This document shows, piece by piece, positions 15,627 to 56,319 of a DNA stretch of 64,000 bases. A program made the translations under genes and the position numbers. Under the pieces are notes generated by a model. That model ran no database searches, had not been told where the DNA came from, and saw only the letters and a list, made by a program, of their open reading frames with translations. The number at the start of each line of letters is the position of its first letter. The stretch's first letter is position 1. Source of the DNA: Pyruvatibacter mobilis (GTDB lineage: Bacteria; Pseudomonadota; Alphaproteobacteria; CGMCC-115125); NCBI RefSeq assembly GCF_012848855.1, contig NZ_CP051630.1, positions 62,001-126,000 on the forward strand, read 5' to 3'.

Positions 15627-15669
15627 GCCCCTGTGGCGGAATTGGTAGACGCGGCAGACTCAAAATCTG
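15627..15669 (+). pseudogene. 5' half of the split host tRNA-Leu(CAA) gene
   Basis: The sequence begins with acceptor strand GCCCCTG, continues through the D-arm (GGAATTGGTAGAC), and ends in the anticodon arm GCAGA-CTCAAAA-TCTG. Phage DNA follows directly and contains neither a T-arm (GGTTCGA) nor the matching acceptor strand CAGGGGC. The missing 3' half is 40.6 kb away at 56265-56319. Joining 15627-15669 to 56276-56319 gives an 87-nt canonical tRNA-Leu with encoded CCA. The integrated phage therefore leaves this gene broken. Confidence 0.9.
15655..15669. other. attL core
   Basis: The 15-bp core CAGACTCAAAATCTG is identical to the attR core at 56261-56275. Its centre is the 7-base anticodon loop CTCAAAA with 4-base arms on each side. 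The left flank is host tRNA; the right flank is phage. Confidence 0.9.
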
Positions 15670-15754: not shown

Positions 15755-15772
15755 TGTTCCTCTAAGGGAACA
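15755..15772. promoter_or_regulatory. Palindromic operator candidate O1
   Basis: TGTTCC-TCTAAG-GGAACA is a perfect 6+6 inverted repeat with a 6-base spacer. The same half-sites and spacing occur in the early promoter at 50589-50606, and with one change at 18510-18527. It lies upstream of the phage RNA polymerase gene. Confidence 0.6.
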
Positions 15773-15880: not shown

Positions 15881-15994
15881 CCTAGTCCCCCCCTGTCCGA
15901 TCCCCTCTTAGAGATCATTAAGAGAACTAAAGGTGCCCCTTAAGACCCCTTAAGGAGACCCGAAGTCGTGCCTAAAGCAGAGGAGAGAGAAGCT

Positions 15995-18509: not shown

Positions 18510-18527
18510 TGTTCCCCCAGCGGAGCA
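18510..18527. promoter_or_regulatory. Palindromic operator candidate O3
   Basis: TGTTCC-CCCAGC-GGAGCA matches O1 and O2 in half-sites and 6-base spacing with one mismatch (GGAGCA for GGAACA). It lies 4 bases before phage promoter P3. Confidence 0.4.
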
Positions 18528-24267: not shown

Positions 24268-24292
24268 CCAGATTGATCCGATAGAGGAACGA

Positions 24293-24811
24293 ATGACTAC
24301 CGTTATCAACTTGTTTGGTGGCCCCGGCGTGGGCAAGTCCACGCTGGCCGCAGCCATCTTCCACCGCCTCAAGGTGGCCGGAAAGAGCGTCGAGATGGTC
24401 ACGGAAGTCGCCAAGGAAATGGTTTGGGAGGAGCGCAAACGCGCCCTCCTGAATCAGGTCTATGTCACCGGCCTCCAGTTCCACCGCCTTTGGAGTTTGG
24501 TGGGCCGGGTGGACCTGGTTGTGACCGATAGTCCCCTCCTCCTCGGGTCGGTTTACGCGCCACACGACATCCCGCCCAGCTTCCACAAGCTGGTCGAGGA
24601 CCTCCACGGCACGTTCCGTAACGAGAACTTCATTCTCCAGCGCCGGGTTCCTTATGACCCGGAGGGACGTGTCCAGGACGAGGGCGAGACCGCCGAGATC
24701 GACCGCAAAGTGCGGGCCATCGTGTCCCGTGCCGACCGCCAGGCCAGCTACCACGTGATGGACCCCACCGACCCGGAAGTGATCGACAAGATCGTCGGGC
24801 GTTTCCTTTAA
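24293..24811 (+). CDS. P-loop ATPase/kinase-like phage protein
   Basis: A 172-residue protein with a clean Walker A motif at the N-terminus (NLFGGPGVGKSTLAAAIF) and a probable Walker B (RVDLVVTDSPLLLGS). The mid-region resembles AAA-type nucleotide or nicotinamide kinases (the AAA_28 group), but no substrate residues are certain. GAGGAACGA precedes the ATG at 24293, chosen because upstream codons are intergenic. It follows primase-helicase and may act in nucleotide supply or modification. Confidence 0.75.
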   Translation: MTTVINLFGGPGVGKSTLAAAIFHRLKVAGKSVEMVTEVAKEMVWEERKRALLNQVYVTGLQFHRLWSLVGRVDLVVTDSPLLLGSVYAPHDIPPSFHKLVEDLHGTFRNENFILQRRVPYDPEGRVQDEGETAEIDRKVRAIVSRADRQASYHVMDPTDPEVIDKIVGRFL

Positions 24812-25114: not shown

Positions 25115-27060
25115 GCCGGTACTTCTTCGACTGTGAGACCAACGGCTTCCTTGACGAACTCGACCGCATTCATTCACTGGTCCTCAAGGACGCCGATACT
25201 GGGCATGTGATCTCCTGCGCCGACCAGCCTCACTACATCAAGAACGGGTTTGGCATCGAAGACGGCGTGAAACTCCTCGCCAGGGCCGACGAGATCATCG
25301 GCCACAACATCATCAAGTTCGACATCCCCGCCCTGGCCAAGGTGTATCCCGGCTTCTCGCCGCAAGGGAAGGTCACGGACACCATGGTCTGGGCGCGTCT
25401 CGTGTATCCCCGCGACGACCTCCGGACGAAGGACGCCAGCCTCAACCGCAAGCGTGAGCGTAAGGGCCTGCCCCGGATCGACGGGAAGGAGATGGGCGGG
25501 CAGAAGCTTGAGACCTGGGGGTTCCGCCTCGGCATCCTCAAGGGCACCTATGCTCAGGACAACGAGGACGCCTGGTCCTCGTGGAACCCTGAGATGCAGG
25601 ACTACTGCGAGCAGGACGTGGAGGTCACTGAGGCCCTCTATAGACGCCTGACCGAGAGGTCTGGCAAGATTTTGGCTGACGGCAAGCCTGCCTTCCCGCT
25701 GGAAGCGATCGACCTGGAGCACCGGGTTGCTGCAATCGTCGCACGGCAGGAGCGGTACGGCTTCTGCTTCGATACCGAGAAAGCAGAGGCCCTGCTCGCC
25801 AGGCTCCTGACCCGCCGCGCGGAACTGGGGGACGAACTCCAGAAGGCATTTCCGCCCCGATGGCGTCCCAAGGGGAAGGGGCCGTTTGTCCCCAAGCGTG
25901 ACAACGCCCGGATGGGCTACGTCGCTGGATGTCCTCTGACCAAGGTTGAGCTTACCCCGTTCAATCCCGGTAGTCGTATCCACGTCTCAGAATGGCTCAA
26001 GGTCATGCGGGGGTGGCGACCGATTGAGTTTACGAACGATGGCCACCCCAAGGTGGATGAAACCATCCTCAACCAATTGCCGTTCCCGGAGGCCAAGGTC
26101 CTTGCTGAGACCTTCATGATCGACAAGCGCCTTGGTCAGTTGTCCGAGGGGGATCAAGCGTGGCTCAAGTGTGTGGGTCTGGATGGCCGAATCCACGGCA
26201 GCGTGAACACCAACGGAGCGGTGACGGGTCGGATGACCCATATGCTCCCGAACGTCGGTCAGGTGCCCAGCGGCAAGGCTCCATATGGTCATGAGTGCCG
26301 TGAATGCTTCACGGTTCCCCCCGATAAGGTGCAAGTCGGCTGCGATGCTGACGCCCTGGAGCTTCGGTGTCTGGCCGGGTACATGGCTAAGTACGACAAT
26401 GGGTCCTACATCGAAGTTGTCCTCAAGGGTAAGAAGGAGGACGGCACCGATAACCACTCGGTGAATTGCCGGGCGCTCGGCCTCGATCCCAAGAAAATCA
26501 TCCCGATTGACGGGAAGCAGGAGACTGGCCGCGACATCGCCAAGACCTGGTTCTACGCCTTCATCTACGGGGCGGGGGACTGGAAGCTGGGCGCTACGGT
26601 GGGAGTCCGGGGAGACGAGGCGGAGATCATCAAGGCCGGTAAGAAGTCCCGCGCCACCTTCCTCAAGAACCTCCCGGCACTCGGGAAGCTGACCGAGAAG
26701 GTCAAGGCCAAAGCCAAGAAGCAGGGCTTCATCCGGGGGCTTGACGGTCGCAGGCTTTCAATCCGCTCCCAACACGCTGCCCTCAACACTCTCCTCCAGT
26801 CTGCCGGTGCGATCATCATGAAGAAGGGCCTCGTCATCCTCGACGGCCTTCTCCAGGACGCTGGTCTCGTGCCCGGCGAGGACTACGAGTTCGTCGCCAA
26901 CGTGCATGACGAATGGCAGATGGAGGTCTCACCGCAACACGCCGAGATGGTCGGACAGACCGCCCGGCGGGCTATTCAACTCGCGGGCGAGGCGTTCAAT
27001 TTCCGCTGCCCGCTCGATGGAGCATATGACATCGGACGCAACTGGGCTGAGACCCACTGA
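25111..27060 (+). CDS. Family A DNA polymerase with 3'-5' exonuclease (T7 gp5-like)
   Basis: The 649-residue replicative polymerase starts with TTG overlapping the previous stop. The exonuclease motif I is at the N-terminus (Asp7, Glu9 in FFDCETNGFL). Polymerase motif A is GCDADALELRC near residue 412, motif B is AKTWFYAFIYGAG near 475-490, and motif C is VHDEW near 598. It is about 55 residues shorter than T7 gp5 (704). Much of the loss is in the thumb, between RWRPKGKG and YVAGCPLT, where T7 carries the basic thioredoxin-binding loop. A second shortening lies before FIRGLDGRR. Confidence 0.95.
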   Translation: MSRYFFDCETNGFLDELDRIHSLVLKDADTGHVISCADQPHYIKNGFGIEDGVKLLARADEIIGHNIIKFDIPALAKVYPGFSPQGKVTDTMVWARLVYPRDDLRTKDASLNRKRERKGLPRIDGKEMGGQKLETWGFRLGILKGTYAQDNEDAWSSWNPEMQDYCEQDVEVTEALYRRLTERSGKILADGKPAFPLEAIDLEHRVAAIVARQERYGFCFDTEKAEALLARLLTRRAELGDELQKAFPPRWRPKGKGPFVPKRDNARMGYVAGCPLTKVELTPFNPGSRIHVSEWLKVMRGWRPIEFTNDGHPKVDETILNQLPFPEAKVLAETFMIDKRLGQLSEGDQAWLKCVGLDGRIHGSVNTNGAVTGRMTHMLPNVGQVPSGKAPYGHECRECFTVPPDKVQVGCDADALELRCLAGYMAKYDNGSYIEVVLKGKKEDGTDNHSVNCRALGLDPKKIIPIDGKQETGRDIAKTWFYAFIYGAGDWKLGATVGVRGDEAEIIKAGKKSRATFLKNLPALGKLTEKVKAKAKKQGFIRGLDGRRLSIRSQHAALNTLLQSAGAIIMKKGLVILDGLLQDAGLVPGEDYEFVANVHDEWQMEVSPQHAEMVGQTARRAIQLAGEAFNFRCPLDGAYDIGRNWAETH

Positions 27061-27373
27061 CAACCCGGCGGCGGGCTACGTGTACCTCGTCAAGAACCCG
27101 GCGTGGCCGGGCATGGTGAAGGTCGGGTCCGCCGCCGACTACGAGCAGCGCTGCCGCAAGTATCAGACGGGCGACCCCTACCGGGCCTATGAGGTCATAG
27201 GGGCGCTCCCGTTCTCTGACCGGCTGGCAGCCGAAAGCGCCGTCCTCCATGAACTCCGCGACCACCACGTAAGCGGTGAGTGGTTCCAGGTGTCGGAGGG
27301 GAGGGCGCTTCACGTTCTTCAAACAGCACCCTGGGAGGTACTGAATGAGCTATCGACGCCACCTTCTGATTGA
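27026..27373 (+). CDS. GIY-YIG-like (T5orf172/MUG113 type) nuclease-domain protein
   Basis: A 115-residue protein (ATG 27026; an ATG at 27017 is also possible) overlapping the polymerase 3' end and, by 29 bases, the exonuclease start. The segment GYVYLVKNPAWPGMVKVGSA is the GIY-YIG-like beginning of the T5orf172/MUG113 family, followed by YEQRCRKYQTGDPYRAYEV and a late ESAVLHELRDHHVSGEWFQ with a Glu. Such single-domain proteins often accompany phage replication genes, and some are homing-type nucleases. Whether it cuts DNA is not shown. Confidence 0.75.
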   Translation: MTSDATGLRPTDNPAAGYVYLVKNPAWPGMVKVGSAADYEQRCRKYQTGDPYRAYEVIGALPFSDRLAAESAVLHELRDHHVSGEWFQVSEGRALHVLQTAPWEVLNELSTPPSD

Positions 27374-46070: not shown

Positions 46071-46678
46071 CGAAACTCAACTGGAAGCCCAACCCCTTCG
46101 CTCCCGGCGGCGATACGCAGTACCAGATGGCCCGGACGCCCCGGTTCAACATCTGGCGCATGTTCGATGTCGCTGCCGGTCAGGAGCACCACCTGGCGTC
46201 TTCCGGACTCCCTGAGTTCCCCAACAAGCCCGGCTATACTCCGCATCCGGAGATTCTCCTGGTCACTCGCGGGGCCTGGCGGTTCTCCTGTCCTGACCTC
46301 CCGAATGGCGGGCATGTGTTCACGCAGGGCGACGGGGCCTTCAAGGTCCGTGGTAAGCGGGGCTACGTCATCACAACCGAAGACCCCCGTGGGAATGGCT
46401 ACGTTTGCATCCAACCCCGCGAGCCTGAATGGTTCGACCGGGAGATCGTGATGATCGGGGCAGGCGAAGTCCTGACGCTTCCCGCCCGTGGCGCTGATAC
46501 CTTCCTCTATCTCGGGAAAGGCGAGGCGCTCCTGGACGGCGGGGAGATCGACCCCAATGACCTGATCGCGCTTCCGGATGACGAGGACGTGGAGATCGAA
46601 GCCCTCTCCAAGACCCTCGGGGTCACTTTCTGGAAGCGTGACGAGTTCCCCACGACCCTTGAGGAGCTATCGGTGTGA
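46067..46678 (+). CDS. Hypothetical phage protein, possibly cupin-like (203 aa)
   Basis: ATG 46067 overlaps the previous stop. The middle part (YTPHPEILLVTRGAWRFSC, then GHVFTQGDGAFKVRGKRGYV) has the strand-turn-strand pattern of cupin-like barrels but lacks a confident metal-binding His set. The C-terminus is acidic. Its stop overlaps the desaturase GTG, so it is translationally linked to that gene; a joint role is possible but unproven. Confidence 0.5.
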   Translation: MTKLNWKPNPFAPGGDTQYQMARTPRFNIWRMFDVAAGQEHHLASSGLPEFPNKPGYTPHPEILLVTRGAWRFSCPDLPNGGHVFTQGDGAFKVRGKRGYVITTEDPRGNGYVCIQPREPEWFDREIVMIGAGEVLTLPARGADTFLYLGKGEALLDGGEIDPNDLIALPDDEDVEIEALSKTLGVTFWKRDEFPTTLEELSV

Positions 46679-47382
46679 ACCAGAAGCTCCTCTACCTGAC
46701 CGCCCTCCAGATCGTCTCCACGGCGGTCGCGGTGGGCGGACTGGTGTTGGCCTTCTCTCCCGCCGGTCTCGCGGTCTCCCTCGCCCTGTTCGTCCTGTTC
46801 GGGGGTGTAGGGATGTCCGTCACCTACCACCGTCGCCTGGCCCACCGGGCGTTCAGGACCTCCCCTTTCTGGGAGTGGGTAGGGACCGGCGCGGGCTTCC
46901 TCGGGTCCCATATGAGTCCCGTGGAGTGGGCAGCCCAGCACTTCAACCACCACCGATACGTGGACCAGCCAGGCGATCCGCACTCTCCAGCCCTTCTTGG
47001 CTGGCGGGCAGCGCTCTACGCCTTCCACGGCGCAGATGCTCCGGTGCCCCGTATGTTCCTGGGACGGCTTCTCCGCCAGCGGCCTGTGGAGTTCTTCCAC
47101 CGGCATGGTCCCTCAGTAGCACTACTCCACCTGGCGTTATGCGCTGTCTTCGGGCTTCCTGGGATCATCTACGGGTTCGCCCTTCCGATCGCGTTGACCC
47201 ACTTCGGATTGATCCTCAGCGTCTTCAACCACGGCCTGGACGGTCCTGCGACACGTGGCTGGCTGAATGCCATCCTGACTATGGGCGAGCACAACCACGC
47301 CGCCCATCACCGGAACGCCACGGATGTCTCCCAGGACGGCCCGGCCACCTGGATAATCAACCGCATCCGCACTGACACATGA
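46675..47382 (+). CDS. Fatty acid (acyl) desaturase, phage-encoded
   Basis: A 235-residue integral membrane di-iron desaturase. All three His boxes of the acyl desaturase family are present: H52xxxxH57 (HRRLAH), H89xxH92H93 (HFNHH), and H208xxH211H212 (HNHAAHH with H206). Hydrophobic segments flank the boxes (about 8-46 and 145-182). It would insert a double bond into membrane acyl chains using oxygen and electrons from the host. It is compact against the 270-400 residues usual in bacteria. GTG start overlaps the previous stop, and the next gene overlaps its stop. It is not part of the T7 core set and is best viewed as an auxiliary metabolic gene. Confidence 0.9.
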   Translation: MNQKLLYLTALQIVSTAVAVGGLVLAFSPAGLAVSLALFVLFGGVGMSVTYHRRLAHRAFRTSPFWEWVGTGAGFLGSHMSPVEWAAQHFNHHRYVDQPGDPHSPALLGWRAALYAFHGADAPVPRMFLGRLLRQRPVEFFHRHGPSVALLHLALCAVFGLPGIIYGFALPIALTHFGLILSVFNHGLDGPATRGWLNAILTMGEHNHAAHHRNATDVSQDGPATWIINRIRTDT

Positions 47383-47959: not shown

Positions 47960-49651
47960 ATGATCTTAGACCAACTCCGGGATTTCAGGAACTTCCTCTA
48001 CCTCGTATGGAAGCACCTGTGTCTCCCCGACCCAACGCCAGTCCAGTACGACATTGCCGCATACCTCCAGCACGGCCCCGACCGAAAAATCATCGAAGCG
48101 TTCCGGGGCGTCGGCAAGTCGTGGATCACCGCCGCCTACGTGGTCTGGCGGCTCTACCTGGACCCCCATGTGAACATCCTGGTCGTATCGGCCTCCAAGG
48201 AACGCTCTGACCAGTTCTCCACCTTCGCCAAGCGGCTGATCGCTGAGATGCCGGTCCTGGCCCATCTCCGGCCCCGGCCAGGTTGCCGAGACTCCAACAT
48301 CATGTTCGACGTTGGCCCGGCCCGCGCCTCGCACTCCCCGTCCGTGAAATCGGTCGGCATCTTCGGGCAGCTTACCGGCTCCCGTGCCGACGAGATCGTT
48401 GCGGATGACGTGGAGGTCCCCAAGAACTCCGAGACCCAGGTTATGCGAGACAAGCTGGCCGAGCGTGTGAAGGAGTTCGACGCCATCATCAAACCGGACA
48501 TCGGTAAGGTGACGTATCTGGGTACTCCCCAGTGCGAGCAGTCCCTCTACAACGTCCTCCCCCAGCGTGGTTACGAAATCCGCGTGTGGCCCGCTCAGTA
48601 TCCCGACGAGAAGGTCCGACTGGCCTACGGGGATCGCTTGGCCCCCATGGTAGCCGAGGCGCTCGACCTGGGGACCGCCCAGGCCGGTATGCCGGTGGAC
48701 CCCAAGCGCTTCGATGAGGAGGACCTGGAGAAACGTAAGCTGTCCTATGGACGCTCCGGCTACTCCCTCCAGTTCATGCTGGACACCAGCCTGTCGGACG
48801 CCGACCGCTACCCGCTCCGCCTGAGAGACCTCATCGTCCGCTCGGTTGACATCGACCTGGCCCCCACCCGCGTCGTGTGGGCCGGTGATCCCGACCTGGT
48901 GATTGACGACCTCCCCAACGTGGGCCTGGCGGGCGACCGCTTCCACCGCCCCATGGCCATCTCGCGGTCCCCAGAAGGATACCCGGAACTGGCCCCGTAC
49001 ACCGGCTCGGTCATGGCGATCGACCCCTCGGGGCGTGGTAAGGACGAGACGACCTACGCCGTGACCAAGATGCTCAACGGGTCCCTGTACGTCCCTGACG
49101 TGATGGGCTTCCGTGGCGGTTACGAGGAGGATGTCCTGGTCGAGTTGGCCCAGGCTGCCAAGCGGAACAAGGTCAACTCCATCGTGATCGAGGAGAACTG
49201 GGGAGACGGCATGTTCACCCAGTTGTTCAAGCCGGTCCTCCAGCGCATCTACCCGTGCCGGATCGAGGACGGCGTGAAGCACTCGGTCCAGAAGGAGAAG
49301 CGCATCTGCGACACCCTGGAGCCGGTCATGAACGCCCACCGCCTCATCGTGGACCCGGAGGTCATCCGGAAGGACTACCAGTCCATCCAGGAGTACCCAG
49401 GGGAACGTGCCCACCACTATAGCCTGTTCCACCAGATGACCCGGATCACCCGCGATAAGGGTGCCCTGGGGCAGGACGACCGCCTCGACGCCCTCGCCAT
49501 GGCTGTCGCCTTCTGGACCGACAAGATGGCCCAGGACGCCGCCAAGAGGCAGCAGGAGCACCGTGAGGCCCTCCTCGCCCAGGAACTCCAGAAGTTCATT
49601 CAGGCAGCCGGTGGGAAAGGCCCCAGGAACCCCTCATGGGTCCGTGTGTGA
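47960..49651 (+). CDS. Terminase large subunit (T7 gp19-like DNA maturase B)
   Basis: A 563-residue packaging motor (T7: 586). The ATPase Walker A is AFRGVGKSW near residues 47-55, and the region ILVVSASKERSDQFSTF is typical of T7-type terminases. Walker B-like EIVADDVEVP follows. The nuclease Asp residues are in AIDPSGRGKDETTYAV and QDDRLDALAMAV. GPARASHSPSVKSVGIFGQL is almost shared with T7. Packages concatemers into heads and cuts at the terminal repeats. Confidence 0.97.
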   Translation: MILDQLRDFRNFLYLVWKHLCLPDPTPVQYDIAAYLQHGPDRKIIEAFRGVGKSWITAAYVVWRLYLDPHVNILVVSASKERSDQFSTFAKRLIAEMPVLAHLRPRPGCRDSNIMFDVGPARASHSPSVKSVGIFGQLTGSRADEIVADDVEVPKNSETQVMRDKLAERVKEFDAIIKPDIGKVTYLGTPQCEQSLYNVLPQRGYEIRVWPAQYPDEKVRLAYGDRLAPMVAEALDLGTAQAGMPVDPKRFDEEDLEKRKLSYGRSGYSLQFMLDTSLSDADRYPLRLRDLIVRSVDIDLAPTRVVWAGDPDLVIDDLPNVGLAGDRFHRPMAISRSPEGYPELAPYTGSVMAIDPSGRGKDETTYAVTKMLNGSLYVPDVMGFRGGYEEDVLVELAQAAKRNKVNSIVIEENWGDGMFTQLFKPVLQRIYPCRIEDGVKHSVQKEKRICDTLEPVMNAHRLIVDPEVIRKDYQSIQEYPGERAHHYSLFHQMTRITRDKGALGQDDRLDALAMAVAFWTDKMAQDAAKRQQEHREALLAQELQKFIQAAGGKGPRNPSWVRV

Positions 49652-49654
49652 TAA

Positions 49655-49676
49655 TTAGGTTCCCCTATAGGGAGGG
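49655..49676 (+). promoter_or_regulatory. Phage RNA polymerase promoter P8
   Basis: TTAGGTTCCCCTATAGG is the consensus, followed by GAGGG as in the T7 phi10-type initiating sequence. It lies just after the large terminase gene and points toward the genome end. Confidence 0.75.
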
Positions 49677-49710
49677 TGGAAAGGGTTCCCTGTAAGATAT
49701 ACATAGGGAT

Positions 49711-49744
49711 ACCTACAGACACCTAAAGACACCTAAAGACACCT
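49711..49744. repeat. Tandem 10-bp repeats near the virion genome end
   Basis: The unit ACCTAAAGAC occurs twice in tandem, with a variant before (ACCTACAGAC) and a partial copy after (ACCT). T7 carries arrays of CCTAAAG beside its terminal repeats, so this marks the right-end region of the virion genome. Confidence 0.7.
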
Positions 49745-49761
49745 GATTGATGTACGAAGAA

Positions 49762-49800
49762 CCCTCCCCAAAGGTCTCGGTAAGAGTCCCGAGGGGAGGG
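49762..49800. repeat. Inverted repeat before the gp19.5-like gene
   Basis: CCCTCCCC (49762-49769) and GGGGAGGG (49793-49800) are exact 8-base arms 23 bases apart. Could form an RNA hairpin at the end of the late transcript. Confidence 0.4.
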
Positions 49801-49817
49801 GGTCCTCCCCCACCGCC

Positions 49818-49988
49818 ATGGATATTCTCAACTCCCTCTGGGACATCTTCACGCACACCATTGGTCTCCTGGTCGTCCTGACCCTCATGGGCCTCCCGAT
49901 AAAGCTGTTCGACCTCTGGATCGACTACGTGGACCGCAAGCAGCGCCGCGAGAACCGTGAGGACCCCCACATGCTCCGGACCCGGTGA
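49818..49988 (+). CDS. Small membrane protein, T7 gp19.5 position (56 aa)
   Basis: The frame reads MDILNSLWDIFTHTIGLLVV, a hydrophobic helix to about residue 35, then a basic tail (DRKQRRENREDP). It follows the terminase gene and the CCTAAAG-type repeats, the place T7 uses for the small gp19.5. Similarity is of position and design, not residue by residue. GAGGGGAGGG about 10-20 bases upstream may serve ribosome binding. Confidence 0.55.
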   Translation: MDILNSLWDIFTHTIGLLVVLTLMGLPIKLFDLWIDYVDRKQRRENREDPHMLRTR

Positions 49989-50103
49989 TTTTGCCGCAAA
50001 AATTTGAGCGGGTATCATCGGATAGGCTGGCTGGAGTTTCCCCCATAGGGGGGTCCGCTGGCCCCTAGGGGATCGTGCAGGGGGCTTTGCGTCACCATCT
50101 ACC

Positions 50104-50137
50104 GTCACCATTCAGGCTAACCCATTGATTTCATTGG
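50104..50137. repeat. Imperfect direct repeat, copy 1 (genome-end region)
   Basis: Starts GTCACCATTCAGGCTAACC and ends TTTCATTGG. It matches 50525-50559 at about 28 of 35 positions with one gap. The two copies are 421 bases apart. Confidence 0.6.
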
Positions 50138-50403
50138 GTCCGGGTGAGATCGTGGATCACTCCGGTACCTATCGGGGCCAATAGGTGCCCGGCGAGTGTC
50201 CTGCGGGCCGGTCGTTTCGGGCGTCCGCGAGGCATATATGGTTTTGCTGACAGGACCACAGCCCTAGGGGACACTTACAGACCCTCTAGGACTCGCAAGG
50301 TTGCCCGCTGATAAGCGTTTAGACCCTGCCCGGTACATCACCACTGGCCAGCCTAAGGGGCACTCTAGGACTCTTTATGAGCCTCCTAGGGCCACGGGGC
50401 ATG

Positions 50404-50427
50404 ACCACCACCACCACCACCACCACC
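50404..50427. repeat. Trinucleotide repeat (ACC)8
   Basis: Eight perfect tandem ACC units in non-coding DNA near the putative virion end. Could vary in number between isolates. Confidence 0.8.
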
Positions 50428-50524
50428 GCAGGGGCCAGCCCTTGGGGGACACGCTCCGGACACGAATTGAACCGATAAGGGGACATAACCCGCCCCTCTG
50501 ACAATCCGTCTAGTGACGCTTTTC

Positions 50525-50559
50525 GTCACCATATCCGTCTAACCTGTTGTTTTCATTGG
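50525..50559. repeat. Imperfect direct repeat, copy 2 (genome-end region)
   Basis: Starts GTCACCATATCCGTCTAACC and ends TTTCATTGG, the second copy of 50104-50137. It lies 25 bases before the early promoter. Confidence 0.6.
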
Positions 50560-50583
50560 TCTAAAAAAATTTCAAAAAGGGTG

Positions 50584-50612
50584 TTGACTGTTCCGACAAG
50601 GGAACATATCTT
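50584..50612 (+). promoter_or_regulatory. Early sigma70-type promoter with embedded operator O2
   Basis: The -35 is TTGACT (50584-50589), followed by an exact 17-base spacer and -10 TATCTT (50607-50612). The spacer is occupied by the palindrome TGTTCC-GACAAG-GGAACA (50589-50606), sharing half-sites with O1 and O3. A repressor bound here would block host RNA polymerase. It is the only clear host-type promoter before ArdA and the early genes, analogous to the A promoters of T7. Confidence 0.75.
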
Positions 50613-50885
50613 TCTCAACGTCAACGGGGCGCACCGCTCCGATGACCACGGCGGAACCGCAACCGCCACGGGATAAACCAAAGCGCGGCGCGTGGCTGGC
50701 AGGAACCAGTGCGGAGTGACCGAACCAGTATCCAGAGCGGAAGCAGAAGACCTTGGGTGCGTAGGCGGGAGCGAGGGTGAGCCTCTAGGGGAAACGCTAG
50801 GGGCACGTGTCGCGGCCTAATGCCGGTCGCCTGATGATGCCCCAAGGCAGGGGCGAAACACGATCCACTTAAGGGGACAGAGATC

Positions 50886-51431
50886 ATGAGTGATTTGCGG
50901 GTCTATGTGGCTGATTTGGCTGCATATAACGAGGGCCGGTTATTAGGACGCTGGTTTGATCTGGCGGACTATGCCGGGGATGCCGAGGGCCTTAACGATG
51001 ACATTGACGCCATGTTGGCGGAGAACGGGCGCGGCGATGAATGGGCCATTCATGATTACGATGGGGCTTTCCCCTTGGAAATCCGCAGCAGCGAAAACCC
51101 GTCACTTGATGGTCTGGCGGAATATGCCGAGGCGGTGGCCGAAGTTGAGCGGGACATGGGCATGAGCGATGCAACCCGGCTGGTGGCCGCGTACCTAGAC
51201 GAGATCGGAGGCGACATCTGCAATGTGGCCCAGAACATCGCGGAGAACTACCGGGGCACTTATGACAGCCTTGCGGAGTTCGCGGAGGAACTGACCGAGG
51301 ATACGTCCGAAATCCCGGACCATCTCCAATACTACATTGACTGGGACAAGATGGGCCGGGACATGGAAATCGGCGGCGACATTACGTCCGTCAATATCGG
51401 CGGCGAGTTGCACATCTTTTGGAACCATTGA
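50886..51431 (+). CDS. ardA: Antirestriction protein ArdA
   Basis: A 181-residue highly acidic DNA mimic that blocks type I restriction enzymes. The family start is clear: RVYVADLAAYNEGRLLGRWF; it continues with EWAIHDYDGAFPLEI, and a C-terminal DHLQYYIDWDKMGRDM and GELHIFWNH, all typical of ArdA. As the first gene after the early promoter it would be made as soon as DNA enters, the job of Ocr (gp0.3) in T7. AAGGGGACAG precedes the ATG. Confidence 0.93.
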   Translation: MSDLRVYVADLAAYNEGRLLGRWFDLADYAGDAEGLNDDIDAMLAENGRGDEWAIHDYDGAFPLEIRSSENPSLDGLAEYAEAVAEVERDMGMSDATRLVAAYLDEIGGDICNVAQNIAENYRGTYDSLAEFAEELTEDTSEIPDHLQYYIDWDKMGRDMEIGGDITSVNIGGELHIFWNH

Positions 51432-51452
51432 TCCGCTAAGGGAGTAGTCACA

Positions 51453-51791
51453 ATGGGACATTATGAACGCATGTGGACATTTGAGACCGAGCGCTTCCTA
51501 GTCGCTTGGGACATAACGCCTTGCGATTATCTGGACCTGTCATGGGACGATACCGGGGAAGTCCGGGAGGGTCTGGAAAGCGGCCATTACGTGGCCTTTG
51601 ACAGTCGCGTTGCGGTGTATCTGGACGGTCAGATGATCGGCGCGGACTACTTGGGCCAGTCGATCTATGCGGACCCGGCGGACTTCCGGGACGTTGGCGG
51701 CTACTTCGGCGATATGGTCCGCGAGGCGGTGCGGGAGGCGCGGGAGGCGCTGCGGAGCCTTAAGGACATCCACGTCCGGGAGGCCGCGTGA
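51453..51791 (+). CDS. Early phage protein, unknown (112 aa)
   Basis: The protein has a patterned N-terminus (TFETERFLVAWDITPCDYLD, then LSWDDTGEVREGLESGHYVA) and a C-terminal helix (VREAVREAREALRSLKDI). Similar proteins are seen beside ArdA on plasmids and phages in my recollection, without a known function. Ribosome site CTAAGGGAGTAG. The stop overlaps the next gene. Confidence 0.65.
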   Translation: MGHYERMWTFETERFLVAWDITPCDYLDLSWDDTGEVREGLESGHYVAFDSRVAVYLDGQMIGADYLGQSIYADPADFRDVGGYFGDMVREAVREAREALRSLKDIHVREAA

Positions 51792-52192
51792 TGAAATTCG
51801 TCTATTACGAAATCCGGCCATGCGTTGAGGTCGATGGGGAAACGCGCAGCTTCCTAGGGAACACGTCCTATAACCCCGAAATCGGGGACATGGTGTACAC
51901 CCATGAGGGGGCGTATGAAGAAGCCGCCGCTGTGGCGGAGGAGCGCGGGACCGGTGTGTTCTGGACGCTCTATGGCCGGGATACAGATGGGCAGGCCACG
52001 GCCATTGGCGACTTCGCGGATTTCGACGCGGCGCTCAACGTCCTAAACGCGATCATCGCTCCAATAGCGGAAGCGCGTGACGATCTGGTCAGCCTTGCCG
52101 GTCTGACCGAGCCGGACACCGCCGACCTCTACGCCTTAGCAGGCGACCTTGACGACATCATCAACCAATCGACCACCAAAGAACGCCTTTAA
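51791..52192 (+). CDS. Early phage protein, unknown (133 aa)
   Basis: Acidic soluble protein starting MKFVYYEIRPCVEVDGETRS; the ATG overlaps the preceding stop (GTGATG; GTG 51788 also possible). The C-terminus contains a helical acidic segment (ALAGDLDDIINQSTTK). No recognised motif. The run of short acidic genes after ArdA suggests host-takeover functions, by analogy only. Confidence 0.6.
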   Translation: MKFVYYEIRPCVEVDGETRSFLGNTSYNPEIGDMVYTHEGAYEEAAAVAEERGTGVFWTLYGRDTDGQATAIGDFADFDAALNVLNAIIAPIAEARDDLVSLAGLTEPDTADLYALAGDLDDIINQSTTKERL

Positions 52193-52206
52193 TGGGAGGC
52201 ATACGG

Positions 52207-52554
52207 ATGATTAATCCAGAACCAACCACCTTTGACCTGATCGAAGCCGCCGCCTGCATTTGGGAAACGTACCTAGAGACGTTGCGGGAGGAACATGAGC
52301 GCGGCGGCGGGCCTTACACCGATTTTGTTGAGGCGCACGGCTATGCCACCACACGGGCGGCGGTCATTGATCCAGCCTTGGCCACTGCCTGTCACAAGGC
52401 CTTTGCGGAGGCGATGAACGCCGGGCGCTATGACGGCCCCTTCGATTGGGACTGGTGCCCCGAGTTTTTCGCCAAGTGCGTCCTTATGGATGCCGACACG
52501 ATCCGTCTGCGCGATGACTGGCAGGTCCGGGCGGCAGCAATCACCACCCTCTAA
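52207..52554 (+). CDS. Early phage protein, unknown (115 aa)
   Basis: Starts MINPEPTTFDLIEAAACIWE and is acidic and aromatic-rich (FDWDWCPEFF). ATG 52207 has GGGAGG 7 bases upstream; the ATG at 52192 overlapping the previous stop would add five residues but lies before the ribosome site. No family recognised. Confidence 0.6.
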   Translation: MINPEPTTFDLIEAAACIWETYLETLREEHERGGGPYTDFVEAHGYATTRAAVIDPALATACHKAFAEAMNAGRYDGPFDWDWCPEFFAKCVLMDADTIRLRDDWQVRAAAITTL

Positions 52555-52564
52555 GGAAATCACC

Positions 52565-53029
52565 ATGCAAACCGAATATGAGACCGGCGGGAGGGTCCTA
52601 ACGCTTCCGCAGGAGGCGGTGGACGCCGCTGGGGACTATGATCTGGAGGCGTTCATTAAGGGCTACCTTGACGCCCTCTTTTTCACCAACACGGGCGAGG
52701 AAGACGACGCCCTTCCGGCAGGGGCCACGGTGGACGACTTCGCGCCAGAAACGGCGGCACTGATCCGCACTGACTGCACACGCTTTGTTGCCGACCATGG
52801 GAACCTGTTGGTCATGGCGGAGCGGTGGGCCGAGGCCAAGGGCTTCACCTATACCGCCGAGCAGGCCGGGATTGACCTTTGGTTCACGCGCAACGGTCAC
52901 GGTGTGGGCTACTGGGACCGCGGCCTTGGCCCCCTAGGGGACGTTTTGGCGGACCTTTGCGGGTACGGCACTGAATACCCGCCCCTCGATCCATACGTGG
53001 GCGATGACGGCAACGTCTATTTGTTCTAA
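52565..53029 (+). CDS. Early phage protein, unknown (154 aa)
   Basis: An acidic protein with a patterned second half (FTRNGHGVGYWDRGLGPLG, then DVLADLCGYGTEYPPLDPYV). This HGVGYWDRG stretch recurs in small phage proteins of unknown role. ATG 52565 follows CTCTAAGGAAATC. No catalytic motif is evident. Confidence 0.65.
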   Translation: MQTEYETGGRVLTLPQEAVDAAGDYDLEAFIKGYLDALFFTNTGEEDDALPAGATVDDFAPETAALIRTDCTRFVADHGNLLVMAERWAEAKGFTYTAEQAGIDLWFTRNGHGVGYWDRGLGPLGDVLADLCGYGTEYPPLDPYVGDDGNVYLF

Positions 53030-53054
53030 CTGACCCTCTAAGGGAGTAATTGCA

Positions 53055-53417
53055 ATGCAGGTGTTTAGCCTGAACAACATTGGCTGGATCATCTCCGGCT
53101 GCGATGACAACGGCGGGGCGACCGCTGACCGCTACACGGTGGCATTCTTTGACGGGGACTGTCTGGGTATGAGCGATGCCCCGACGCATCCCCTAGGGGT
53201 CTCTATGTGGTGCGGCGGGGGCGTCGATCCGGCCGCTGAGACGGCCTGTAATTTCGATGACCTGCCCGACCATATCCAAGCGCACACCGTGGCCCGCCTC
53301 AACCAAGGACTGGCCGACTGGGCCGAAGGTTCCGGCCTGACGCCAGAGGAATGTGCCCGCGAGATCATCCACGAGATGACCGGCGAGTGGCCTGACCTCG
53401 CTGAATGCCGCCCTTAG
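53055..53417 (+). CDS. Early phage protein, unknown (120 aa)
   Basis: A Cys- and Gly-containing protein (NNIGWIISGCDDNGGATADR, SMWCGGGVDPAAETAC) with a helical C-terminus (LTPEECAREIIHEMTGEW). CTCTAAGGGAGTAATTG gives the ribosome site. No family recognised. Confidence 0.6.
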   Translation: MQVFSLNNIGWIISGCDDNGGATADRYTVAFFDGDCLGMSDAPTHPLGVSMWCGGGVDPAAETACNFDDLPDHIQAHTVARLNQGLADWAEGSGLTPEECAREIIHEMTGEWPDLAECRP

Positions 53418-53451
53418 TGCGTCCTGACTGATCCGAGAAAGGAACAATCCC

Positions 53452-53760
53452 ATGACCATAAAACTCACCCTACGCACCATCGGCGGGGAAGCCACCGTGG
53501 ACGCTTACGAGCATGGTGATTTCTTTGCGATCCACCGAAGCCTCTTGGCCAAGTCGTGGTGGACCCTGACCCATATCCCAACGGGTATGCGGTGCGGGCC
53601 TGACCGGCGGACCAAGCGGGAATGCCGGGAGATCGGGGACATGCTCACCGCCTCCGGTGTCGATTGGTCCCATGAGGAATACGAGAAGCTGACCGGGCAG
53701 GACGCCTTTTTGGAAGCCGCCCGGAAGATCAGCAACTGGCCGACACGGGGGCGGGCATGA
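53452..53760 (+). CDS. Early phage protein, unknown (102 aa)
   Basis: Starts MTIKLTLRTIGGEATVDAYE; the following part, FFAIHRSLLAKSWWTLTHIP, GMRCGPDRRTKRECREIGDM, is rich in basic and aromatic residues, unlike its acidic neighbours. GAGAAAGGAACAATCCC precedes the ATG. Unknown function; the pattern could suit a small nucleic acid-binding protein. Confidence 0.6.
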   Translation: MTIKLTLRTIGGEATVDAYEHGDFFAIHRSLLAKSWWTLTHIPTGMRCGPDRRTKRECREIGDMLTASGVDWSHEEYEKLTGQDAFLEAARKISNWPTRGRA

Positions 53761-53849
53761 GAAAGGACCGCTTCCGCCGCCTAAAGAATTGCGACACCCC
53801 CCTCTCGCTCAATGGAGGCTCACGACCGTGGGAATGTTTGACACCGTAA
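53757..53849 (+). CDS. Possible very small basic protein (30 aa)
   Basis: The ATG overlaps the previous stop (ATGA). It reads MRKDRFRRLKNCDTPLSLNG and ends soon after. The frame is coupled by overlap but overlaps the next gene's start, so it may be only a coupling peptide or chance. Confidence 0.3.
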   Translation: MRKDRFRRLKNCDTPLSLNGGSRPWECLTP

Positions 53850-54100
53850 CCGCCCGCTGCCCGGAGTGCGGTGGGAAAATCGAATGGCAGTCCAAGGCCG
53901 GGGAGTGCTGCTTGGTCTCCTATGACGCCCGCGCCGTCCCGGCGTCCATCGCGGAGGACCTAGATGGCGCCTACTCCAGATGCCCGGAGTGCGGCGAGGA
54001 CGTTGAGTTGAGGCAGGTCACGGCCCCCGCTCGGGTCCCTATGTACGCGGTGACGCTGGGCGGGACCGTTGACCCGAACGCCGGGGAGGATTGGATTTGA
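53828..54100 (+). CDS. Zinc-ribbon early phage protein (90 aa)
   Basis: GTG 53828 with GGAGG 9 bases upstream (an ATG two codons on also possible). Two CPECG knuckles (ARCPECGGKIEW and SRCPECGEDVEL) about 46 residues apart should bind one zinc ion. Small phage zinc ribbons often contact RNA polymerase or nucleic acid, but the partner here is unknown. The stop overlaps the next small gene. Confidence 0.7.
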   Translation: MGMFDTVTARCPECGGKIEWQSKAGECCLVSYDARAVPASIAEDLDGAYSRCPECGEDVELRQVTAPARVPMYAVTLGGTVDPNAGEDWI

Positions 54101-54198
54101 AGCGCCTAATCCTCGACGCCTTGGGCGGGGTCATCTTCGCAGGCTCCGCCTTCACCCTTGTAATCATCTTCATGCTGACTATCGGAGGAGTAGCGTGA
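54097..54198 (+). CDS. Tiny single-helix membrane protein (33 aa)
   Basis: TTG 54097 overlaps the previous stop, with GGGGAGGA 7 bases upstream. It reads MKRLILDALGGVIFAGSAFT and continues as one hydrophobic helix. The stop overlaps the next ATG by one base. The strong ribosome site and coupling support a real gene. Confidence 0.5.
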   Translation: MKRLILDALGGVIFAGSAFTLVIIFMLTIGGVA

Positions 54199-54365
54199 TG
54201 GAAACATTGCTGATGACAGCCGCCTGCATGGCGCTCGCGGTGAGTGCGATGGTCGTGGGCGTTGCAACCATGAGTGTTCTCACCACAATCGCGGAGAACT
54301 GTGCGGCGTTCTGTCGCAAAACCTATAGGAGGCTGGCCGGAAAGCGCCCCGCTAAAGCCCCATAA
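54198..54365 (+). CDS. Small single-helix membrane protein (55 aa)
   Basis: ATG 54198 after GGAGGAGTAGCG. The hydrophobic part spans about residues 5-32 (MTAACMALAVSAMVVGVATM), and the tail is basic (RKTYRRLAGKRPAKAP). It lies at the end of the early operon. Unknown; small early membrane proteins can act on host membrane functions. Confidence 0.5.
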   Translation: METLLMTAACMALAVSAMVVGVATMSVLTTIAENCAAFCRKTYRRLAGKRPAKAP

Positions 54366-54441
54366 CGCAGGACCACCCCGTCTCTGGCGGGTCTCGAAAC
54401 ACCCTTATGTCTCGCCGGGAGTTGCCCAGCGGCGGTGTCGA

Positions 54442-54456
54442 TCCGAAAATATCGGA
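54442..54456. promoter_or_regulatory. Palindrome upstream of the regulator-integrase genes
   Basis: TCCGA-AAATA-TCGGA is a perfect inverted repeat about 70 bases before the gene at 54514. A -10-like TAAAAT at 54495-54500 lies between them without a clear -35. May be part of a lysogeny promoter for regulator and integrase. Confidence 0.35.
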
Positions 54457-54513
54457 AACGGCGAGTCGCCTCCCGGTTCCCCCCGAAACCTATGTAAAAT
54501 AGAGGGTATTTAC

Positions 54514-54768
54514 GTGAAGTTACTGCGTTTTTGGTATGTCCGCATTGCTCCTTCGTGGGAACTGTATGTAGAGTTCACACGCGGGGACGGTAATGGTCAC
54601 AGGAAGTTCTTTGAGACCGCCCGTGACGCAGGCGAGCTGCACATCTGGATCGGCCAGATGAAGCTCGAAATTTGCAAGTCAGTGCAGAGAGATAGAGGAA
54701 AAAATGGCATCTCAAACCCCTCAGCGAGCCAGCAAGCGAACGATTGGCCGCTTGATAAATACGATTGA
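54514..54768 (+). CDS. Hypothetical protein overlapping the regulator (84 aa)
   Basis: GTG 54514 after GAGGG. It reads KLLRFWYVRIAPSWELYVEF and TRGDGNGHRKFFETARDAGE, a beta-rich pattern. It overlaps the winged-helix gene by 65 bases in another frame. Plausible as first gene of the lysogeny operon; no family recognised. Confidence 0.5.
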   Translation: MKLLRFWYVRIAPSWELYVEFTRGDGNGHRKFFETARDAGELHIWIGQMKLEICKSVQRDRGKNGISNPSASQQANDWPLDKYD

Positions 54769-55063
54769 GGCGTTCCGCGTATTGGAACCCGACATTCAGG
54801 CCCAGACCATCATGACATTCCTCATGGCGGCCCGGAAAGAAGGCGTCGGCATGAGAGAGATGCAGGATCACCTAGGCGTTGCCCGCTCCACCATGAGCCG
54901 CAACGTGGGCATCCTGTCATCCACCGGATACCGGAAGGGCGTTCCCGGCTTCGGCCTGATCGAAGCGCGGGAGGACCCCGAGGATCGCAAGGCCAAGCAG
55001 GTTTACCTGACGCCGAAGGGGCGTCGGTTCCTGGAGAACCTCTTGTCACAAGGAGCAGATTGA
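54704..55063 (+). CDS. Winged-helix (MarR-like) regulator, candidate lysogeny repressor
   Basis: A 119-residue DNA-binding protein. The helix-turn-helix is GVGMREMQDHLGVARSTMSR and the wing is FGLIEAREDPEDRKAKQVYL, followed by TPKGRRFLENL, the MarR-like order. It lies directly before the integrase gene. A dimer of this type would bind a palindrome such as TGTTCC-N6-GGAACA in the early promoter; this pairing is an inference. No other repressor candidate is seen except the 82-residue HTH at 21975. Confidence 0.8.
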   Translation: MASQTPQRASKRTIGRLINTIEAFRVLEPDIQAQTIMTFLMAARKEGVGMREMQDHLGVARSTMSRNVGILSSTGYRKGVPGFGLIEAREDPEDRKAKQVYLTPKGRRFLENLLSQGAD

Positions 55064-55064
55064 T

Positions 55065-56126
55065 ATGGCAGTAAGACGAAAGGGGACGAAGTGGCAGGCG
55101 GACGTGACCGTCAAAGGCCAGCGCCTCCCCCGCTACTCCTTCAACACCGAGGAGGAGGCCAAGGCATGGGAAATGGAAGCCCGTGCCGCCGCGATCCTCG
55201 GGAAGCCTATCCCGGTCCCCGACGATGCACCGATCCGTGGGGGCAAGAAGCCCCGGCGGGTCGGCGGGCCGTGGACGCTGGAGCAGGCATTCCGGGAGAC
55301 ACATACCAAATACTGGAAGGGCACCGCTCACGGGCGGAAGCAGACCCACAACATCCGGCAGATTGAGGAGTTCTTTGGGCCGCACCTGCCGGTGACTGAG
55401 ATCGGGACCGAGGAGATCGAGGCATTCGTTGCTGCCTGCATCGAGAAGGGCAATAGCGGGAGCACGATCAACCGCAAGCTGTCCTGCCTGTCCAAGGCGC
55501 TCAATCTGGCTCAGACCCGTGGCCACTTGACGGTCCTGCCCAAGATCGAACGGGCGAAGGAGAACCAAGGCCGCATACGCTGGTTGAGTGACGCCGAGGA
55601 GCAGGCATTCCATCACTACTTCGGCCTGTGGGGCGACCAAGACCGACTGGACGCCTTTGTGTGCCTGATAGACACCGGCTTCCGTCCGTCCGAGTTGTGG
55701 ACGCTCGAAGCCCGCGACATCAACTTCGGCCTCGGGATGATTACCCTCTGGGAGAACAAGACCAACTGGCCCCGGTCGATCCACATGACAGGCCGGGTCA
55801 AGGAGGTCCTGCTCCGCCGCACCGATGGCGGGCGGCATGGTCCCTTTGACTTCGGCCTCTCCACGGAGGAGATGGGCCGGTGGTTCCTGTACGGATGGGA
55901 TCGGGTCCGCGCCGAGTTGGGTCTGTCAGATGACCCGCAGTTCGTACCGTATGCCTTGCGGCATACTTGCTGTTCCCGCCTTATCCAGCGGGGCGTTGAT
56001 CTGGTACGGGTCAAGGAATGGATGGGCCACAAGACTACCCAGACAACCATGCGCTACGCTCACCTTGCGCCCAAGCACCTGGCCTCGCTTGTGGACGCCC
56101 TTGAGCAGCCCCGCGAAGTCGCGTAG
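55065..56126 (+). CDS. int: Tyrosine-type integrase
   Basis: A 353-residue site-specific recombinase with the full catalytic set: Arg207 (GFRPSE), Lys232 (ENKTNW), His300 and Arg305 (LRHTCCSR), His322 (MGHKTT) and the nucleophile Tyr331 (MRYAHL). The N-terminus is an arm-binding-like domain (VRRKGTKWQADVTVKGQRLP) and the middle a core-binding helical domain from about residue 70. It starts 1 base after the regulator stop and lies 135 bases from attR, as usual for a phage integrase. It should catalyse insertion into the tRNA-Leu anticodon loop. Confidence 0.96.
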   Translation: MAVRRKGTKWQADVTVKGQRLPRYSFNTEEEAKAWEMEARAAAILGKPIPVPDDAPIRGGKKPRRVGGPWTLEQAFRETHTKYWKGTAHGRKQTHNIRQIEEFFGPHLPVTEIGTEEIEAFVAACIEKGNSGSTINRKLSCLSKALNLAQTRGHLTVLPKIERAKENQGRIRWLSDAEEQAFHHYFGLWGDQDRLDAFVCLIDTGFRPSELWTLEARDINFGLGMITLWENKTNWPRSIHMTGRVKEVLLRRTDGGRHGPFDFGLSTEEMGRWFLYGWDRVRAELGLSDDPQFVPYALRHTCCSRLIQRGVDLVRVKEWMGHKTTQTTMRYAHLAPKHLASLVDALEQPREVA

Positions 56127-56127
56127 G

Positions 56128-56166
56128 TAGTGACGCCACTGGTGACGTGACCCGTAGCTGGTGACG
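56128..56166. other. Candidate integrase arm-type sites, right
   Basis: Three direct copies of an 8-base word lie here: TAGTGACG (56128-56135), TGGTGACG (56140-56147) and TGGTGACG (56159-56166), between the integrase gene and the phage tRNA. Matching words occur on the left phage flank. Their binding by the integrase is an inference. Confidence 0.4.
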
Positions 56167-56253
56167 CGGAAGTGGTGGAATTGGCAGACACGGCGGACTC
56201 AAAATCCGCTGCCCTTCAAAGGCTTGCGGGTTCGAGTCCCGCCTTCCGCACCA
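56166..56253 (+). tRNA. Phage-carried tRNA-Leu(CAA)
   Basis: A complete cloverleaf: acceptor GCGGAAG/CTTCCGC, D-arm GGAATTGGCAGAC, anticodon arm GCGGA-CTCAAAA-TCCGC with anticodon CAA, long variable arm TGCCC-TTCAA-AGGCTT region, T-arm GCGGG-TTCGAGT-CCCGC, discriminator A and encoded CCA. It reads UUG codons. The long variable arm and A73 are leucine identity features. It differs from the split host tRNA (acceptor GCCCCTG), so it was not made by duplication of the target. It lies 8 bases inside attR and can replace the tRNA that insertion destroys. Confidence 0.95.
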
Positions 56254-56260
56254 AGCATCT

Positions 56261-56275
56261 CAGACTCAAAATCTG
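56261..56275. other. attR core
   Basis: CAGACTCAAAATCTG, identical to 15655-15669. Left flank phage (AAGCATCT), right flank host tRNA 3' half. Combined phage flanks give attP GCATCTCAGA-CTCAAAA-TCTGACATGC, an inverted repeat with one mismatch. Confidence 0.9.
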
Positions 56276-56319
56276 CTGGGGGTAACTCCGTGCTGGTTCG
56301 AGTCCGGCCAGGGGCACCA
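56265..56319 (+). pseudogene. 3' half of the split host tRNA-Leu(CAA) gene
   Basis: From the anticodon loop it continues TCTGC, a variable arm (TGGGGGTAACTCCGTG), the T-arm GCTGG-TTCGAGT-CCGGC, acceptor CAGGGGC, and ACCA. The upstream phage sequence lacks a D-arm and the GCCCCTG strand, so no functional tRNA is formed here. Its partner is 15627-15669. Confidence 0.9.

Follow-up and report, generated by a model that had tools for sequence, protein, structure and literature searches.

What are the small genes for that follow an antirestriction gene in a prophage of the alphaproteobacterium Pyruvatibacter mobilis? The stretch concerned, positions 50613–54365 of a 64,000-nucleotide piece of DNA (contig NZ_CP051630.1, positions 62,001–126,000; hereafter 'the window', whose numbering is used throughout), is part of one complete 3.33-Mb genome. 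It consists of a leader, a gene for ArdA and a tightly packed series of small genes, and an earlier note had taken it for the early gene island of a T7-like phage. We consider it reasonably likely that this island serves a temperate T7-like prophage as its early operon, open to repression, and that it encodes ArdA together with candidate counter-defence or takeover proteins. As far as sequence can tell, five features are firm: the position of the island, its ArdA gene, its single reading direction, the lack of a phage-type promoter inside it and the pair of palindromes described below.

An early island headed by ArdA in a T7-like prophage

The prophage spans about 15.65–56.28 kb of the window and is bounded by a 15-bp direct repeat with copies at 15655 and 56261. 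All features of the Autographiviridae type are present: a single-subunit RNA polymerase, a T7-type terminase, T7-like gene order, an integrase and attachment repeats (Table 1). Replication and virion genes lie between polymerase and terminase, with the gene order read by eye, and once the ends are joined over the attachment site the order runs terminase, early island, regulator, integrase, polymerase. Phages LUZ100, Lo5R7ANS and Pasto have this same layout, with a MarR-like helix-turn-helix (HTH) protein as regulator, which bears out the early position and the T7 analogy drawn in the earlier note. In phage ProddE, early genes with ArdA are likewise followed by integrase and then polymerase (the terminase end lay outside the part compared), but a cI-like repressor stands where the prophage has its MarR-like protein, and no MarR-like protein was recognised in ProddE. 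ArdA is also present in the early region of Pasto. The early gene content of all four phages is almost wholly unlike that of the prophage: proteins g2–g11 (numbered from ArdA, g1) had no match in the compared parts at an expectation value (E) of up to 0.01, and a weak match of g5 to the ProddE gene directly before ArdA (E = 0.05) was dropped. The phage polymerase, sought in 59 related genomes, was found only in the window's own.

In coliphage T7, the early genes sit at the left end, ahead of the gene for the single-subunit RNA polymerase. The prophage agrees with T7 in this early position before the polymerase gene and in encoding a DNA-mimic antirestriction protein early. Unlike T7, it has ArdA in place of the gene 0.3 product Ocr, described as an early DNA mimic (PMC7261183), its regulator and integrase sit between island and polymerase, and its island promoter holds an operator-like palindrome.

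The protein g1 is, by its sequence, a genuine ArdA. It matches PF07275 with 123.2 bits (cut-off 27) over profile positions 1–152 of 155, has an isoelectric point of 4.05 with a net charge of −32 over its 181 residues, and aligns along residues 1–172 with a solved ArdA/ORF18 (PDB 2w82; E = 3e-13), which we take to be the protein from Tn916. It is thus a sequence relative of that protein, but here a phage early gene. Among the titles and abstract openings listed in our literature search, none dealt with ArdA in the early region of temperate T7-like phages; a 2022 Virology paper on such phages lay outside that search.

Small and mostly acidic proteins behind ArdA

The open reading frames (ORFs) were confirmed where the earlier note had placed them, ArdA first and the small genes behind it, all on the plus strand. 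From g1 to g10 they are separated by 0–67 bases or overlap slightly; 148 bases precede g11, which lies just outside the end of the stretch at 54365. Codon scores back the annotated frame for g1–g9 and g11, while g10 scores −0.045 in its annotated frame and +0.10 in another.

Three claims about these proteins were borne out. The run had been described as mostly acidic. The net charge per 100 residues of g1–g6 and g8 does range from −8.3 to −17.7, whereas 27 other prophage proteins (picked by eye, HTH protein and integrase among them) have a median of −2.6; the difference reaches p = 0.0007 for g1–g8 (one-sided Mann–Whitney test) but loses significance over all eleven (p = 0.057). The zinc ribbon has its two CPEC motifs in g8, but every Pfam match listed for that protein (25 of 59) falls under its cut-off. 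The two tiny proteins described as membrane proteins, g9 and g10, are both hydrophobic by the grand average of hydropathy (GRAVY), but the coding signal of g10 is ambiguous.

Families recurring in distant phages

The small proteins had also been credited with no recognised motif beyond those described. This stands for g4 and g7–g11, which have no credible relative in Pfam, PHROGs or profile searches (weak profile matches of g4 to loci L151 and L075 vanished in a larger search and were dropped). It does not stand for g5, a member of PHROG 1915, nor for g2, g3 and g6, which recur elsewhere; when aligned, g2, g3 and g5 each show motifs that are conserved throughout their families, even in distant phages. 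At the DNA level, the only close match to the island among phage records was one of 65 bases inside g5, in two phages, and g2 and g3, sought in 289 genomes of the class, were found only in the window's own genome.

The family of g5 is a wide one among phages. The protein matches PHROG 1915 with E = 3.2e-28 and shares a family motif around DFWxTRNGHGVGYWDR; members are present in 370 of 50,697 records from phages and in 8 of 72,556 from plasmids. PHROG 1915 has no assigned function and belongs mostly to other phage types (Mycobacterium 168 and Escherichia 77 of the 370 records); one member lies in the terminal repeat of Caulobacter phage CcrRogue. Two further T7-like islands carry g5, and at one of them (L147) ArdA is followed by g5 with 117 bases between the reading frames.

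Relatives of g2 were found at 29 loci, counting the window and one duplicate (L016/L221), and ten of the 29 carry g5 at the same locus. Single-sequence searches with g2 gave two phages, none in plasmids and none confirmed in viral contigs; more came only with an alignment. For g6 there are 34 phage records (E up to 0.01), none confirmed in viral contigs, and six loci, window and duplicate counted, five of them with g5. Of 25 loci anchored on g2, 6 have g5 near g2; among 160 anchored on the terminase the figure is 2 (p = 8e-5). The loci compared differ in length and origin, and one of the six, L221, is the contig L016 already known from the g5 search. The g2 and g5 pair occurs in Erythrobacter phage XM05, within the small-gene region after the terminase, and in Sphingomonas phage Carli, and g6 is paired with g5 in Rhodobacter phage RcCWillis; all three phages infect alphaproteobacteria. 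In the region that follows the terminase of Citromicrobium phage RXM, an annotated ArdA is followed about 2.2 kb later by g6; that ArdA has weak profile support (E = 2e-6 scored alone, 14 bits) and is absent from the wider profile-search matches. Orf52 of Rhodococcus phage RGL3 matches the g2 profile (E = 1.6e-4 among the ORFs of the locus) 1.9 kb from ArdA on the same strand, and a 119-residue RGL3 protein, probably the same Orf52, matches the g2 model with a template-modelling score of 0.68. Because g2, g5 and g6 are found together in unrelated phages, our best guess from these distributions is that they are counter-defence proteins.

The distribution of g3 is narrower. Its 12 loci include the window and two duplicate pairs (L031 and L227 are one contig; L096 and L231 are identical at g3), and with these counted g3 is accompanied at 10 of the 12 by the HTH gene found in temperate T7-like phages. 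One further locus is an Aminobacter conjugative plasmid, where g3 lies near DUF932, DUF2958 and a strawberry notch protein; another, L225, showed no T7 marker within the 12 kb examined. In sequence records g3 matched one plasmid and no phage record. An early role specific to the T7 lineage is our best guess for g3.

The structure searches by which the earlier note could have been overturned were run for g2 and g5, and revealed no convincing solved match. Both AlphaFold models are confident (predicted local distance difference test, pLDDT, 92.5 for g2 and 89.6 for g5). Against solved structures, the g5 model reached a best Foldseek E of 0.6 and a best Z of 3.7, which does not in itself prove a new fold. 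The g2 model is a small alpha-beta protein whose solved matches are weak and tied (Z up to 4.8). Two of them are AcrIF proteins (7dtr and 7xi1; Z 4.3 and 4.1, root-mean-square deviation 3.7–3.8, 68–70 residues), tied with unrelated folds; a relationship of g2 to AcrIF24, to which its sequence had no match at E up to 10, was therefore kept as a lead only. In a viral structure library the g2 model matched two uncharacterised phage proteins (E < 0.001). Searching the sequences of solved structures with profiles built from g2, g3 and g5 likewise gave no convincing relative.

A palindrome pair at the island promoter and the polymerase gene

The leader of about 270 bases that had been noted before ArdA was recovered: a sigma70-like −10 element ends at 50612 and ArdA starts at 50886. 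A perfect palindrome, TGTTCC-N6-GGAACA, fills the promoter spacer, and a second perfect copy lies upstream of the phage RNA polymerase gene. The genome has no further perfect copy; two within the 40.6 kb of the prophage has a Poisson p of 1.4e-6, for a pattern picked after being seen. Near-copies also lie at 18510, after the polymerase gene, and at 17669, inside it. The pair suggests that one repressor governs both the island and the polymerase gene. Were a host regulator involved, further perfect sites would be expected, which still makes a phage repressor the simplest reading; the obvious candidate, and most likely the protein that binds, is the MarR-like one. At an annotated MarR-family gene of LUZ100 it has 40% identity over 89 amino acids (aa); the LUZ100 authors suggest control of the polymerase promoter by a MarR-like repressor, and within the early region they report three promoters of host type whose transcription starts were mapped (PMC10134795).

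The motif ATTAGGTTCCCCTATA has eight sites with 0–2 mismatches, all on the plus strand and all in the prophage, against 0.08 expected. Two precede the polymerase gene and the last, at 49654, follows directly after the terminase gene; within the island none was found at 0–2 mismatches. These copies are probably promoters of the phage RNA polymerase. Given a putative host-type promoter with a palindrome and no ATTAGGTTCCCCTATA inside, the island is probably read early by host polymerase and silent in the lysogen.

Two further sequence features were seen around the leader. CCTAGG (7 of 8 window copies) and CTAGGG (8 of 11) crowd into 48001–56000, the leader and early genes, and an imperfect 26-base direct repeat (81%) lies between terminase and ArdA, at 50112–50137 and 50534–50559; this repeat is perhaps linked to a terminal repeat.

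The same place in other T7-like phages

Terminase-alignment scans gave 160 loci, the best 80 from genomes and the best 80 from viral contigs, and we compared the 66 (window included) with an integrase no more than 12 kb downstream of the terminase. ArdA occurs in 11 of these 66 terminase-to-integrase islands, window counted; the 11 are not independent, sharing ancestry (L076 and L080 are both pelagibacterial). The 609 ORFs of the 66 islands fell into 480 clusters, 424 of them singletons. The ORFs came from a simple script that also makes false ORFs, and as it missed g4 and started g5 too early in the window, the singleton counts are rough.

Pfam was searched with 174 of the 177 cluster representatives of at least 95 aa, two of them with the start moved downstream; the remaining three belong to the window and were scanned separately. 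Single matches were to the ArdC N-domain and a C5 methylase, with two to ArdA and three to GP88; single or double matches were to metallopeptidases, Bro-N, AbiJ and Rap1a domains, and also to amidase and RNA polymerase. Together with the ArdA count, the ArdC-like and methylase matches agree with the suggestion of the earlier note that this is a fair place to seek anti-defence genes. The place between terminase and integrase is, on these gene contents, variable, and holds anti-restriction genes repeatedly but not exclusively.

Some sister-island genes recur. One family of up to 266 aa is shared by six temperate T7-like islands (L046, L054, L096, L117, L130 and L150) and was seen by eye at L031, 543–1313. 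GP88 (PF17338) matched 1 of 88 and 2 of 86 island proteins in scans that gave no member names, and we infer that the recurring family may be GP88. Islands L055 and L092 share two neighbouring larger genes; the annotation of Pasto shows a zinc peptidase at this place, and island proteins gave matches to two metallopeptidase families of Pfam. By eye, the L055/L092 genes, the Pasto peptidase and these matches appear to be the same.

Weighing the functions proposed for the island

We propose the following course of events. In a lysogen, the palindrome would be bound by a phage repressor, for which the MarR-like protein at 54704–55063 is the likeliest choice, and neither the island nor the phage RNA polymerase would be expressed. 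Once the phage infects or is induced, host RNA polymerase would read the island from 50584–50612. ArdA, a DNA mimic, would be made first and would block type I restriction; the acidic g2–g6 would join it as additional proteins of counter-defence or takeover, and regulator and integrase would then join the choice between lysis and lysogeny. A more specific version, in which g2, g5 and g6 travel together as portable counter-defence genes, g5 has a fold not yet solved and one repressor acts on operon and polymerase through TGTTCC-N6-GGAACA, is tentative and on the whole doubtful.

Several observations weigh against this proposal. Searches of Pfam, PHROGs, NCBIfam and PADLOC recognised a function for ArdA alone of the eleven island proteins, and ArdA's usual target appears to be missing from the host genome, where HsdR_N and HsdS were sought without a match; ArdA would therefore serve in other strains and not in this P. 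mobilis host (both were found in one of three same-genus genomes searched, one of these 81% complete). The relatives of g2, with a median of −5.7 charges per 100 residues, are less acidic than the window copy, and sister islands also match the metabolic families Thy1, transaldolase and dNMP kinase. On the side of control, a scan for sigma70-like promoters gave two sites against 2.5 expected, not above chance, and the Pfam matches of the MarR-like protein are below cut-off, its binding to the palindrome being putative. With up to two mismatches the palindrome has 14 window copies against 2.2 expected, 12 of the 14 in the prophage, and one near-copy, at 53429, covers the ribosome-binding region of g7; the pair is therefore not a clean one, and part of the motif may reflect a general tendency of the phage sequence. 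Leader and polymerase upstream region share a palindrome in only 3 of 25 loci, window counted, and a general operator in the sister phages was dropped for that reason.

The small size and acidity of the proteins, and a genome position like that of the T7 early genes, would also suit an island that, apart from ArdA, serves mainly host takeover, its products binding host RNA polymerase or other enzymes and shutting host functions. The LUZ100 authors presume such a role for the region (PMC10134795), but no named takeover protein was matched by the island proteins at the thresholds used in Pfam, PHROGs, NCBIfam and PADLOC, and we regard this reading as unlikely. None of our findings speaks for inhibition of host RNA polymerase in particular. 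Slightly less probable again is that the locus is a hot spot of small-gene turnover in which most genes behind ArdA ride along as passengers, with no early role under selection. The 424 singletons among 480 clusters, rough as that count is, and the orphans g4 and g7–g11 speak for turnover, whereas the conserved motifs of g2, g3 and g5 across distant phages and a phage-like codon usage in all but g10 speak against it. Least probable of the three is that these are lysogeny genes, expressed from the prophage to protect against other phages, with g9 and g10 acting as membrane proteins in superinfection exclusion. Two tiny hydrophobic proteins do lie close to the regulator, and AbiJ_NTD4 and Rap1a immunity domains have one sister-island match each; yet the palindrome common to island promoter and polymerase region suggests silence in the lysogen, and PADLOC returned one weak match only, of ArdA to ZorA (E = 0.008).

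Returning to the early, repressible counter-defence operon that we favour, anti-defence gene clusters of mobile elements are a published concept (Pinilla-Redondo et al. 2020, PMC7648647). The stretch resembles them in having ArdA among small uncharacterised genes, and differs in having one recognised anti-defence gene, the acr and aca collections lying outside our searches. A strict anti-defence island has at least two recognised anti-defence genes side by side; only ArdA is recognised here, so we do not file the stretch as one, although it probably works like one.

Integration at tRNA-Leu(CAA)

The attachment core (15 bp; 15655–15669, and within 56261–56319 on the other side) lies in the anticodon arm of a host tRNA-Leu(CAA) gene that is split by the prophage. 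Joining the prophage flanks in silico restores an intact tRNA-Leu(CAA), and loci from three same-genus genomes contain an intact tRNA-Leu(CAA) too. The prophage has its own complete tRNA-Leu(CAA) at 56166–56253, next to the right attachment site; a tRNA scan of the junctions found none around the left site and only the phage tRNA around the right one. GACTCAAAATC has five matches in the genome, of which only the phage copy lies within an intact tRNA, a copy with another anticodon arm being possible. A tRNA-Leu was present in 8 of 10 other T7-like loci scanned.

Integration at tRNA-Leu genes has been reported for T7-like cyanophages (PMC8776855), and the LUZ100 authors suggest that the tRNA-Leu beside its integrase may come from imprecise excision (PMC10134795). 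In actinobacteriophages, tRNA-dependent lysogeny has been described (PMC10865867, whose main text contains none of the words T7-like, Autographiviridae and pelagi-). Both sequence features of that strategy, a host tRNA that is not rebuilt and a phage tRNA of the same isotype, are found here, and the arrangement looks like tRNA-dependent lysogeny in a T7-like phage.

Feature positions and neighbouring genes

Elsewhere in the prophage, a fatty acid desaturase-like protein is encoded at 46675–47382, between the late genes and the terminase (PF00487, 33.2 bits, cut-off 29.7). The gene of a T5orf172/MUG113 protein (26984–27373) overlaps the DNA polymerase gene at its end, and the replication region encodes an AAA_28 ATPase (24284–24811).

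Table 1. Positions in the window of the island, its control elements and the prophage genes discussed
Feature	Position	Strand	Remarks
Putative host sigma70-type promoter of the island	50584–50612	+	TTGACT-17-TATCTT
Leader	50613–50885	+	about 270 bases
Palindrome TGTTCC-N6-GGAACA, putative operator	50589–50606	.	fills promoter spacer
Second perfect palindrome copy	15755–15772	.	upstream of phage RNA polymerase gene
ATTAGGTTCCCCTATA sites	15813, 15863, 18531, 18775, 21842, 28180, 29062, 49654	+	
g1, ArdA antirestriction protein	50886–51431	+	181 aa; PF07275, phrog_2059, 2w82
g2, acidic, phage family without assigned function	51453–51791	+	112 aa; 29 loci; model pLDDT 92.5
g3, acidic, recurs in temperate T7-like early islands	51791–52192	+	133 aa; 12 loci
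g4, acidic orphan	52207–52554	+	115 aa (120 aa if from 52192); no family, no relative
g5, acidic, PHROG 1915	52565–53029	+	154 aa; model pLDDT 89.6
g6, acidic	53055–53417	+	120 aa; 34 phage records at E up to 0.01; 6 loci
g7, orphan, near neutral	53452–53760	+	102 aa
g8, zinc-ribbon-like	53828–54100	+	two CPEC motifs; GTG start (ATG at 53834); sub-threshold zinc-ribbon matches
g9, hydrophobic	54097–54198	+	33 aa; TTG start; GRAVY 1.80
g10, hydrophobic, coding signal ambiguous	54198–54365	+	55 aa; GRAVY 0.63
g11, orphan	54514–54768	+	84 aa; overlaps start of regulator gene
Single-subunit phage RNA polymerase	15968–18508	+	PF00940, E = 1.3e-107; 42.5% identity to Pseudomonas phage LUZ100
Large terminase subunit, T7 type	47960–49651	+	PF22530; 56–61% identity to four relatives
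MarR-like winged-helix regulator, candidate prophage repressor	54704–55063	+	sub-threshold HTH/MarR matches; LUZ100 MarR-family gene
Tyrosine integrase	55065–56126	+	PF00589

Implications

As a kind of locus this island is ordinary; its detail is useful. It supplies g2, g3, g5 and g6 as named, testable candidates, each from a family with relatives. Should g2, g5 and g6 prove to be portable counter-defence families under a shared repressor, counter-defence would be switched together with the lysis decision. And if the followers of ArdA do block defences, the early region of temperate T7-like phages, as compared here across 66 islands, would be a general source of counter-defence genes.

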